From: a virus
IMG/VR virus record: IMGVR_UViG_3300025853_000273
Coordinates: 1 to 36,404 of that record
Reading direction: 5' to 3' (one strand)
Length of the DNA: 36,404 bases
How positions within the stretch are numbered: the first letter of the stretch is position 1; each line of letters starts with the position of its first letter. Of this stretch, positions 27,493-30,303 are shown piece after piece. The notes under the pieces were generated by a model that did not search any database, had not been told where the DNA came from, and saw only the letters and a list, made by a program, of their open reading frames with translations. The position numbers and the translations under genes are program-made.

Positions 27493-27746
27493 TGGCAACC
27501 AGAGAAGCACCAGTCCCATACTTCCCAAATGCACCGCATGCGTATGATCATCGGTATATGACAGAAGTGGTGCGGGCATTCTCTTTGTACCTTGCTCAAG
27601 CGCAGAACCCCGGAACTGCTGTATTTAATACTCTTAATCTGTTAAACTTGCCAACATACGAAGATAACTCTGCCGCTATAGCTGGTGGCTTGTCAGTAAA
27701 TGACGTGTATAAAACTGCCACTGGCGAACTGAGGATAGTGATATGA
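27492..27746 (+). CDS. Small tail-associated protein, unknown
   Basis: The 84-residue product starts REAPVPYFPNAPHAYDHRYM and TEVVRAFSLYLAQAQNPGTA, then TLNLLNLPTYEDNSAAIAGG and LSVNDVYKTATGELRIVI. It overlaps the nozzle-like gene by one base (TAATG) and the next tiny gene by four (ATGA). I recall this short protein from other marine podovirus genomes, always after the same large tail gene, which suggests a partner of the nozzle. The C-terminal GELRIVI is a beta-hairpin type that also ends some fibre-attachment domains. Function unknown. Confidence 0.7.
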   Translation: MATREAPVPYFPNAPHAYDHRYMTEVVRAFSLYLAQAQNPGTAVFNTLNLLNLPTYEDNSAAIAGGLSVNDVYKTATGELRIVI

Positions 27747-27850
27747 CTGAGAAAAAAGTTATACCTTTGAAGAAGGAAACAAAGGAAGAAAGTAAAAGTG
27801 TTACGGTCTTTGCAACAGGGCCGAAGCCAGCAGGCGGGAGTACTTTGTAA
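27743..27850 (+). CDS. Very short gene, 35 residues
   Basis: The frame encodes 35 residues starting MTEKKVIPLKKETKEESKSV and ending KPAGGSTL. It starts inside the stop of the preceding gene (ATGA) and its own stop overlaps the next start (TAATG), so it is fitted exactly between two genes that otherwise would leave a gap of about 100 bases. It is Lys/Glu/Ser-rich, without membrane segment or Cys. The seamless overlaps on both sides are the main evidence that it is translated. Role unknown; it may act as a small assembly factor or simply as a coupling peptide. Confidence 0.65.
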   Translation: MTEKKVIPLKKETKEESKSVTVFATGPKPAGGSTL

Positions 27851-28731
27851 TGGGATTTTTAGATGACGTAAAAATGGGACTTGGGCTGAAAGAGAAAACC
27901 CAAGACTACAAGGATAGAACAGAAAAAACTAAGTCTATAAATAAAGCAATCTCTAGTGGGGATACCTCTGCGTTTAAAGACGACCCAGCTATGATGTCTC
28001 GTTATAAACGTGAATCCATGATGGACAGAATGGGTGGTGCAAGCGACAACTCTGGGATTAAATCTATTAGTGGCGGGAATACCCCTGCAGAAGAAGACAT
28101 GTCATCTATATATGATGAGAATCGTCGTCGCTACGAAGAGTTCATGAAGAATCAACAGCCACAACAGCCATCGGTAACACCAGAGATGCGTCAAGCTGCA
28201 CTACAAACCTTTGAATCTCAACAGGGTGCAGGTCAAGTTCCTTATTATATGGCAGCAGCGCGTAACCAGTATAATCCAAACATGAGTCCAGCATTCCAAT
28301 ACGCGGCACAGAACTATGATGTTCTTGGTGGATCGCAGCGTCTTGCCCCACGCCCTATGGAGATGATGAGCGTAGCAGAACGCGGTCAGATCAATGACAT
28401 GGCACAAGCTATGGCAGATCAAGAAGCGAAGCAACGACAGGCTGAAACTGATTACCAAGCTGGCATGGACATGGTTATGCGCGGCGGTATGGGTAAGGGT
28501 GGCCCTCGAACTGGCCCTCAGTTCCCAGAAAATAGAATGCCCGGCTATGGTGGCATGGGTACACCTCCTACAAATATGCCTCGTTTTGGGGGAAAAGGCG
28601 GTGGTGGGGTTGAGCCTCAGATTCCACCGATGAGACAACCACCAAGCAGACAACCAGTCATGCACGGTGGTAGACCTATACCATTTGCATCTATACTCGC
28701 TTCTAGATTTGGTGGATTTGGAGGTCAATAA
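27850..28731 (+). CDS. Unknown virion-associated protein, Gly/Met/Pro-rich end
   Basis: The 293-residue product has a charged N-terminal part (DDVKMGLGLKEKTQDYKDRT), a central helical part with YDENRRRYEEFMKNQQPQQP and TPEMRQAALQTFESQQGAGQ, and a low-complexity C-terminus rich in Gly, Met and Pro (from about 210, MVMRGGMGKGGPRTGPQFPE to the end). No membrane segment is seen. It lies between tail genes and the lysis cassette, where many podoviruses keep small virion or ejection proteins. Overlaps TAATG on both ends. I recognise no family. Confidence 0.65.
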   Translation: MGFLDDVKMGLGLKEKTQDYKDRTEKTKSINKAISSGDTSAFKDDPAMMSRYKRESMMDRMGGASDNSGIKSISGGNTPAEEDMSSIYDENRRRYEEFMKNQQPQQPSVTPEMRQAALQTFESQQGAGQVPYYMAAARNQYNPNMSPAFQYAAQNYDVLGGSQRLAPRPMEMMSVAERGQINDMAQAMADQEAKQRQAETDYQAGMDMVMRGGMGKGGPRTGPQFPENRMPGYGGMGTPPTNMPRFGGKGGGGVEPQIPPMRQPPSRQPVMHGGRPIPFASILASRFGGFGGQ

Positions 28732-28982
28732 TGGCACACACTATTCTTGATGACTGGAAAATACTGCCACGCCTCATGATGCTGGCTGTGACTGTCCTTA
28801 CCTATAAGGCGGTTCTTTGGTTTATGACACTGCCCGATCCCACAGTTGCTCAGTCAGGTTTGGTCAGCGTCTGCATGGGCGCACTCACTGGCTGTTTCGG
28901 CATCTGGATGGGTAAGGAAGCTAAGACGACTGTGACGCAAACACAGACAAGCTCTAAGGTGGAGTACGATGTGGACAAGTGA
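28731..28982 (+). CDS. Holin-like protein, two membrane segments
   Basis: The 83-residue product has hydrophobic segments at about 14-33 (LPRLMMLAVTVLTYKAVLWF) and about 44-62 (LVSVCMGALTGCFGIWMG), and a charged C-terminus with KTTVTQTQTSSKVEYDVDK. Two membrane helices, a short length, and a charged tail fit class II holins, which make pores in the inner membrane to time lysis. The gene heads a group that includes an endolysin about 1 kb downstream. It overlaps the preceding gene by one base. A second holin-like gene is at 29064. Confidence 0.7.
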   Translation: MAHTILDDWKILPRLMMLAVTVLTYKAVLWFMTLPDPTVAQSGLVSVCMGALTGCFGIWMGKEAKTTVTQTQTSSKVEYDVDK

Positions 28983-29067
28983 TGCCATAGTTACTCACTT
29001 GATAGTGAAGCTACTTGAGCTTGTCCTTGGCGTTGAGATGACCATGTATGGGAGTGTAATGGTATGA
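28969..29067 (+). CDS. Hidden 32-residue hydrophobic protein in lysis cassette
   Basis: The frame encodes 32 residues beginning MWTSDAIVTHLIVKLLELVL and ending MTMYGSVMV. The start lies 14 bases inside the holin-like gene, with the strong ribosome site AAGGTGGAG at proper spacing, and the stop overlaps the next start as ATGA. It fills the otherwise empty gap of 81 bases between two lysis genes. The peptide is hydrophobic with an amphipathic helix (one Lys and two Glu within a Leu/Val/Ile run), as in small membrane-active peptides. It could be an antiholin, pinholin-like or regulator of the holin, but this is only inference. Confidence 0.6.
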   Translation: MWTSDAIVTHLIVKLLELVLGVEMTMYGSVMV

Positions 29068-29456
29068 TCCAAGCATTGATAGGGCCGATAGCTGAACTGG
29101 CAGGTGGATGGCTGAAAGGCAAAGCAGATGCACAAGCGGCTGCAGCCAATCTCAAACTTGTAGAGGCGGAAGCGAAAGCGACCATAATGAAAAGTGCCGC
29201 TACGTCAGAAGCCGATTGGGAGCGTCTGATGGCACAGGGTTCGCAGAACTCGTGGAAAGACGAGTGGTTAACAATACTATTCAGCGTACCATTGATCTTA
29301 TGCTTCCTACCATTTGAATGGGCAGAACGTGCTGTCACGAATGGGTTTGCGGCACTAGAGTCTATGCCTGATTGGTATCAATACACGTTAGGTGTTATCG
29401 TGGCTGCATCTTTTGGTGTGCGGTCAGCAACTAAATTCTTTGGCGGGAAGAAGTAG
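29064..29456 (+). CDS. Holin-like protein of 3-segment type
   Basis: The 130-residue product starts with a hydrophobic/Gly segment (IQALIGPIAELAGGWLKG), then an Ala-rich charged helix (AQAAAANLKLVEAEAKATIM), then SEADWERLMAQGSQNSWKDE and two membrane segments: LTILFSVPLILCFLPFEWAE (about 72-91) and YTLGVIVAASFGVRSATKFF (about 107-126). This layout, with the DWERLMA and NSWKDEW pieces, matches what I know as the three-segment holin family related to gene-transfer-agent release. It is coupled to the hidden small gene before it (ATGA) and to the spanin-like gene after it. A second holin-like gene lies upstream, so one may be an antiholin. Confidence 0.72.
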   Translation: MIQALIGPIAELAGGWLKGKADAQAAAANLKLVEAEAKATIMKSAATSEADWERLMAQGSQNSWKDEWLTILFSVPLILCFLPFEWAERAVTNGFAALESMPDWYQYTLGVIVAASFGVRSATKFFGGKK

Positions 29457-29821
29457 TGGAAAACATTAAGCTGCCCATAACTATCATTGGAGTCATCATC
29501 TTGCAGATTGGTGGCTTTATTTGGTGGACTGCGCAGCAAGCAGCAACCATTGCTGATTTAGAGGAAACGGTAAACCAGCTTGGTTCTAAGATGGCTATTG
29601 AAGATAACGTCAATCTCAAGCGCGATGTTAAAGACGCATTTATGGAGATTGAGTATCTGTGGGATGAAACCGAAGAGATTTGGGAAGACCATGAAGGTTT
29701 GGCCCGTACAATTGGTGCAATTACCTCACTGCAGCAGCGTGTAGCGTTGCTTGAAAACGAACTTAAATACATCAATCGTGACCACGAGGGGATGTTGGAT
29801 ATGAAAGGGAGTATGAAATAA
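29456..29821 (+). CDS. Membrane-anchored coiled-coil protein, spanin-like
   Basis: The 121-residue product has one N-terminal membrane segment (about 5-25, LPITIIGVIILQIGGFIWW) and then a long coiled coil (TIADLEETVNQLGSKMAIED and LQQRVALLENELKYINRDHE). The form is that of an inner-membrane spanin, which spans the periplasm to join the outer membrane during the last stage of lysis. No lipoprotein gene (outer spanin) is seen embedded or next to it, so it may act alone or have another role. It starts with GTG inside the TAG stop of the holin-like gene (1-base overlap), and ends as TAATG with the endolysin gene. Confidence 0.65.
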   Translation: MENIKLPITIIGVIILQIGGFIWWTAQQAATIADLEETVNQLGSKMAIEDNVNLKRDVKDAFMEIEYLWDETEEIWEDHEGLARTIGAITSLQQRVALLENELKYINRDHEGMLDMKGSMK

Positions 29822-30303
29822 TGCCATACAAACTAGGAAACCGTAGCGTACAGAAGCTAGAGGGTGTCGATGAGCGCATGCAAGCAGTTGTTCGTGCGGC
29901 TATCGGTCAGTCGAAGCAAGACTTCTCTGTGATTTGTGGACTCAGAACCATCGAAGAGCAACGTGCATTGGTTGCTAAGGGTGCGTCAAAGACTATGAAG
30001 TCCAAGCACCTAGACGGTGTGGCAGTTGACCTAATGGCCTACGATGGATCAATGACCCCTGCAGGACGTTGGGAGTTAAATCTGTATGATGAGATAGCTG
30101 ATGCGATGAAGCGCGGGGCTGAAGAAGTTGGTGTTGGTGTATGTTGGGGCGCGGCTTGGGCTGTCGAAGGTCATGGGTATCCGTTCGATATTCGTGAGTG
30201 GGACGGCACAATGGAAGACGCGATGAATGCATATGTTGACCTACGTCGATCACAAGGTAAGCGTCCATTTATTGATGGGCCTCACTTTGAATTGATCGTT
30301 TAA
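29821..30303 (+). CDS. Endolysin, M15-type peptidase
   Basis: This enzyme cuts peptide cross-links of the cell wall. The 160-residue product shows the zinc peptidase pattern: SKHLDGVAVDL (61-71) supplies His63 and Asp70, and GPHFEL (153-158) supplies His155, the three expected zinc ligands. CGLRT (39-43) and CWGAAW (108-113) correspond to the family's typical neighbouring strands. The size equals a single catalytic domain such as L-alanyl-D-glutamate or D-Ala carboxypeptidase types; which bond it cuts is not clear. No signal peptide is seen, so release depends on the holin. It ends the lysis cassette; the next gene follows after 41 bases and the second palindrome copy. Confidence 0.88.
   Translation: MPYKLGNRSVQKLEGVDERMQAVVRAAIGQSKQDFSVICGLRTIEEQRALVAKGASKTMKSKHLDGVAVDLMAYDGSMTPAGRWELNLYDEIADAMKRGAEEVGVGVCWGAAWAVEGHGYPFDIREWDGTMEDAMNAYVDLRRSQGKRPFIDGPHFELIV

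Follow-up and report, generated by a model that had tools for sequence, protein, structure and literature searches.

A conserved 32-residue gene in the lysis cassette of marine phages and its possible role as an accessory lysis peptide

Comparison of related viral DNA identifies the frame at positions 28969-29067 of a viral genome as a genuine, conserved gene. The gene, referred to as S32, encodes 32 residues and belongs to the lysis cassette of the window, which is the whole analysed stretch of 36,404 nucleotides (IMG/VR virus record IMGVR_UViG_3300025853_000273, positions 1 to 36,404). The small-protein family it represents is new, but of a general kind already known, the accessory genes of lysis cassettes. 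The best explanation overall, in which we place about even confidence, is that marine tailed phages carry S32 as a real accessory gene, whose product would be a translationally coupled lysis peptide acting at the membrane.

The cassette in the window

The cassette contains the following features.

28731..28982, + strand: G83, upstream membrane gene, 83 aa, last 14 nt overlapping S32; phrog_10198
28956..28964, + strand: AAGGTGGAG, ribosome-binding-like site of S32 within the G83 coding sequence; a purine-rich stretch precedes the ATG in the distinct relatives printed
28969..29067, + strand: S32, small gene, 32 aa, ATG...TGA; conserved frame under purifying selection, 48 distinct DNA sequences
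29050..29057, + strand: GGGAGTGT, ribosome-binding-like site of H130 within the last S32 codons; a YGSV/YQGV exchange tracks the -4/-1 start overlap
29064..29456, + strand: H130, downstream membrane gene, 130 aa, in the holin position, ATGA overlap with S32; phrog_2524
29456..29821, + strand: 121-aa gene, weakly i-spanin-like, N-terminal hydrophobic segment at 4-22; phrog_8909
29821..30303, + strand: M15-type endolysin, 160 aa; phrog_465 endolysin (E 3e-43), PF13539 just below cut-off

The sequence-only reading had drawn attention to a hidden frame of 32 residues that starts inside a holin-like gene, stops in an ATGA overlap with the next one, and fills the only gap in the cassette. The DNA bears out each of these points. 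An open reading frame runs from ATG to TGA at 28969-29067, the TGA of G83 lies at 28980-28982, giving the 14-nt overlap, and the S32 stop and the H130 start share ATGA at 29064-29067. G83, S32, H130, the 121-aa gene, and the endolysin gene overlap end to end on the + strand. If S32 is left aside, only one stretch of 28731-30303, the 81 nt that separate 28982 from 29064, is not covered by a longer forward gene.

G83, H130, and the 121-aa gene matched phrogs annotated as unknown function (E 2.8e-12, 3e-32, and 3e-6, respectively). G83 also resembled PF07332 (holin superfamily III) below the cut-off (E 0.013), and the similarity of the 121-aa gene to the Rz-like spanin phrog_739 reached only E 0.098. 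The holin position is defined by relatives in which holins of PF11351 (formerly DUF3154) occupy the place of H130, although H130 itself falls short of the PF11351 cut-off. PF11351 is the family assigned to TeaA, the holin of Vibrio phage ICP1, which was experimentally tested together with an antiholin of the same locus (PMC7182436). The position after S32 is therefore taken as the holin position.

Two side observations were made in the window. No o-spanin partner of the i-spanin-like 121-aa gene (29456-29821) was evident, and no lipobox was seen by eye in the ORFs overlapping it. A charged ORF of 35 aa at 27743-27850 overlaps both of its neighbours, and a homologue near S32 was found in 0 of 42 distinct loci.

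Conservation of the frame

A search of viral contigs with the 130-aa protein returned 80 loci, six of which carried a homologous frame of 31-32 aa at the same place. The window ORF and five of these relatives made up the first S32 alignment, and a profile-guided scan of viral contigs with it led to 72 loci. In a second scan with a 30-sequence alignment, 80 of 93 confirmed matches were taken in, which added 26 locus ids to the set; 5 of these lay on contigs counted before. Together, the two scans placed S32 homologues on at least 93 viral contigs, several of which possibly represent one virus from different samples. The 99 entries (the window and 98 loci) comprise 48 distinct DNA sequences and 41 distinct proteins, every one of 31 or 32 residues.

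Direct evidence for a gene comes from the pattern of substitutions. The selection test used 18 non-overlapping pairs from the first 36 distinct sequences and was confined to codons 6-25, away from either gene overlap and from the ribosome site of the following gene. Changes at codon positions 1, 2, and 3 numbered 31, 9, and 93, and pN/pS was 0.13. When all pairs were pooled, the ratio was 0.34; the median omega was 0.16, and synonymous sites were close to saturation. Both other forward frames across S32 contained stops in all 36 distinct sequences. The frame was also whole in 13 of 13 relatives with the same layout in an ungapped comparison, in which non-gene mechanical ORFs within the downstream gene were intact in 0-5 of the 13. 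A gapped comparison left non-gene ORFs within the upstream gene intact in 1-6 of 13 relatives and S32 in only 6 of 13, because gaps fell in the overlap and misplaced the S32 start; the ungapped figure was adopted. An antisense ORF at 28991-29338 was rejected as the source of conservation, as it was intact in 0 of 13 relatives and the changes track the third positions of the sense frame.

A hidden gene in the cassette, hydrophobic and coupled in translation to its neighbours, thus has strong support, including purifying selection at the protein level. The sequence-only reading had named synonymous substitutions and identical overlaps in relatives among the checks, and the relatives display both the third-position excess and fixed overlaps. 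Broken frames between intact flanks, which it had named as refuting, were not encountered, since 227 slots without S32 contained no decayed copy. The probability that S32 is a spurious ORF is negligible in our judgment. It has merely 32 codons and is absent from every family library used, but the selection test, the 13 intact frames, and the number of distinct sequences contradict such a view.

Those library searches found no match for S32 in Pfam or NCBIfam and nothing significant in PHROGs or PDB sequences, the best PHROGs hit being E 0.034 to phrog_13448 (2 of 28 members). With a sensitivity that is limited for 32 residues, tblastn with two family members gave no match at E <= 10 in 50,697 GenBank phage records, and no prophage or host copy was confirmed in 84,980 GTDB species genomes. 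Nine stretches in the GTDB genomes fit one short S32 pattern, and none of them was confirmed. A literature search found no description of the gene.

The S32 protein

The consensus is approximately MxTxExxxTHLxVKLLExxLGVEMTLYGSVMV. All 41 proteins share V13, E17, M24, and Y27, and each has K or R at position 14. AlphaFold2 (28 sequences) predicts a helix at residues 4-20 followed by an extended tail, with a mean pLDDT of 82. The best 19-residue Kyte-Doolittle mean reached at least 1.6 in just 15 of the 41 proteins, a marginal result for a membrane-spanning segment, and the charged residues K/R14 and E17 fall midway along the hydrophobic stretch.

The product had been described as hydrophobic and amphipathic. 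The first attribute is supported, at a level marginal for membrane insertion. The second is unsupported and was rejected, because the helical hydrophobic moment of residues 6-25 did not exceed that of shuffled sequences (shuffle fraction 0.27 for the window protein and 0.10-0.77 for the 41 proteins). Likewise, the signal for a single conserved helix face was weak (p 0.02-0.04 at 100 degrees, 0.07-0.13 with nearby angles allowed) and was dropped as a main argument. Given the borderline hydrophobicity and a moment not above shuffled versions, a membrane location is rated as no more than likely. The cysteine of an o-spanin lipobox was absent from all S32 sequences printed.

Overlaps and ribosome-binding sites

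Both ends of S32 follow a strict rule. Its start codon falls within the last codons of the upstream gene, with an overlap of 14 nt in 44 of 73 loci and of 11 nt in the other 29. Its stop overlaps the downstream start as ATGA (-4) in 55 loci and as TAATG (-1) in 18. The same rule held at both ends in all 26 further locus ids. Overlaps of -4 and -1 are reported to be linked to tight translational coupling (PMC10666635).

The ribosome-binding-like site AAGGTGGAG, which had been noted as strong, lies 4 nt 5' of the S32 ATG. Its strength, however, is partly a by-product of the upstream coding sequence, because related phages without S32 carry nearly the same letters there (AAGGTAGAG in L006). At the other end, the C-terminal codons of S32 also serve the next gene as its ribosome-binding-like site. 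The residues encoded there follow the type of overlap: YQGV was present in 17 of the 18 loci with a -1 overlap, the remaining one (L103) having YGSV, versus 0 of the 55 loci with a -4 overlap. This is what would be expected of a leader cistron, that is, a frame that merely couples translation and carries the holin ribosome site while its peptide is inert. Such a reading is very improbable, because codons 6-25, which belong neither to an overlap nor to the ribosome site, are under strong purifying selection too. Furthermore, some variants (L159 and L152, for example) have lost a clear GGAG-like site before the downstream gene and yet keep the S32 amino acids, so the ribosome site alone cannot account for the conservation.

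Changing neighbours of S32

The genes around S32 change while S32 stays. Upstream of it lies a membrane gene of either the 83-aa type or an unrelated type of ~112 aa. The downstream gene belongs to the 130-aa type or its 114-aa relative (41% identical, both phrog_2524), the 134-aa type, or the 153-aa type (phrog_6637, unknown function). The 134-aa type is a PF11351/phrog_3427 holin, the L090 member scoring 73.7 bits against a cut-off of 24.8. The 130-aa and 134-aa families share a 29-residue N-terminal match (prob 91), the 153-aa and 134-aa profiles do not align (prob 2.8), and no full-length similarity is detectable among the three downstream families. S32 was seen in all 7 observed combinations of upstream and downstream types (49 distinct slots), and the distance from the first gene to the holin was fixed at 81 or 84 nt in S32 slots.

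Of 42 distinct S32 loci whose downstream sequence was long enough, 35 had an M15-type endolysin homologue. A 208-aa gene is found in several of the others, and that of L090 displays sub-threshold similarity to GH19 and peptidoglycan-binding domains; at least two endolysin types accompany S32. The window's 121-aa gene was found in only 4 of 45 loci. A constant partner was looked for and rejected: since the upstream, downstream, and endolysin genes all vary and the 121-aa gene is rare, no tested cassette gene fills that role.

Most relatives of the cassette lack S32, which was present in 6, 20, 4, and 5 of 80 loci in four flank-based sets. Among 276 distinct slots (excluding loci with <150 nt upstream and 22 that had no holin match), 227 had no S32 and no remnant of it, the best tblastn matches being at chance level (E 0.19 and above). 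In other words, S32 is cleanly absent from them and never decayed.

These observations bear on the suggestion that S32 is an antiholin. An antiholin role is possible. In its specific form, in which S32 would bind the neighbouring holin in the membrane and delay triggering, we consider it unlikely. S32 is encoded with a holin-position gene, which it overlaps in 73 of 73 loci and in the 26 further locus ids, and a hydrophobic helix is predicted. Antiholin genes often lie beside or overlap holins (PMC7182436). However, no pairing with a particular holin was found. The same core protein stands next to three downstream families (beside H130, H114, H134, and H153 types), the H153 and H134 profiles fail to align, and S32 has no sequence relation to any of the holins. 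With partner families that vary around an unchanged S32, the holin-specific form is the less likely one.

Indifference to holin and endolysin type would also fit other accessory cargo, i.e. a late-expressed membrane peptide directed against a host protein or a superinfecting phage and carried in a part of the lysis operon whose content varies. The slot hosts other short genes as well, including a ~69-aa cysteine-containing family and a 30-aa peptide. On the other hand, S32 is always coupled directly to the holin-position gene, and none of the 99 entries examined had it elsewhere. This reading appears somewhat unlikely.

The 30-aa peptide is an unrelated hydrophobic ORF (...VIEWMKGDQ) in the S32 slot of three contigs (L079, identical to L183; L184 near 2956; L185 near 568). 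It lies between 83-aa-type and 130-aa-type genes with start-stop overlaps on both sides. One speculative reading, which we hold to be rather doubtful, is that the space between membrane gene and holin is a plug-in slot in which marine phages can exchange peptides of ~30 residues, and that S32 and the unrelated peptide are holin-independent lysis regulators. Acting on the membrane as such or on a shared host factor, both would tune lysis and so fit any holin.

Other short genes were observed in this position. An ORF of 29-30 residues (L272:250-342) directly 5' of a 134-aa-type holin has an EGVLV end and an ATGA overlap like S32, with a different upstream gene; it is possibly a distant relative or an analogue of S32. 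The ~69-aa family has an N-terminal hydrophobic stretch and conserved cysteines, and lies directly before the holin, mostly with an ATGA overlap (L031, L074, L209, L210, and others). In Puniceispirillum phage HMO-2011 (GU557055.1), a relative of the 83-aa gene is located downstream, not upstream, of the 130-aa homologue. It extends past an annotated small CDS (46023-46193), whose annotated start may be too late.

Proposed role

The place of S32 between two membrane genes of the lysis cassette suggests, as a guess, that it helps control the timing of cell burst. Position, coupling, and hydrophobicity point to an accessory peptide of lysis whose synthesis would keep pace with that of the holin, and this is the preferred reading. 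Within the lysis operon, S32 is inserted after the small membrane gene and before the gene in the holin position. On completing the upstream gene, ribosomes would reinitiate on S32 and next on the holin, so that peptide and holin would be produced in parallel. The short hydrophobic segment, a predicted helix at residues 4-20, would sit in or on the inner membrane. There, S32 may shift lysis timing by hindering or helping hole formation, independently of any single holin family. Such effects may be exerted on the membrane, by way of a host factor, or as general help to lysis, and the function of S32 may also be unrelated to lysis.

S32 adds an unannotated, strongly conserved family of ~32-residue proteins to marine phage lysis cassettes. 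It illustrates how very short genes escape annotation despite clear selection on the frame. It is also a clean test case for whether a peptide indifferent to holin type can set lysis timing.

Comparison with known systems

CydX and AcrZ are small membrane peptides with a single transmembrane segment that modulate larger membrane proteins. S32 is like them by description alone, with no sequence relation found: ~30-50 residues, a hydrophobic helix, and production beside or with a putative partner. PF11351 (GTA_holin_3TM, phrog_3427) touches S32 as a neighbour. S32 itself has no match to it and the window's H130 is below its cut-off, whereas the 134-aa member of L090 directly follows S32, and genes of this type follow S32 in the loci with a -1 overlap (18 of 73).

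Phage antiholins such as lambda S107 and T4 RI and RIII are small products encoded beside or overlapping the holin gene and made with the holin. For ICP1, ORF138 (151 aa) is taken here to be ArrA. The ICP1 lysis locus was rejected as a homologous system, as similarity of the window genes to TeaA and to this ORF was at chance level. S32 differs from the dual-start type of lambda S107 in that it lies in a different frame, has no BLAST similarity to the holin, and is not a longer start form of it. Although S32 is far shorter (32 aa) than these antiholins and not tied to one holin family, it is like those of lambda, T4, and ICP1 in that it adjoins or overlaps the gene in the holin position.
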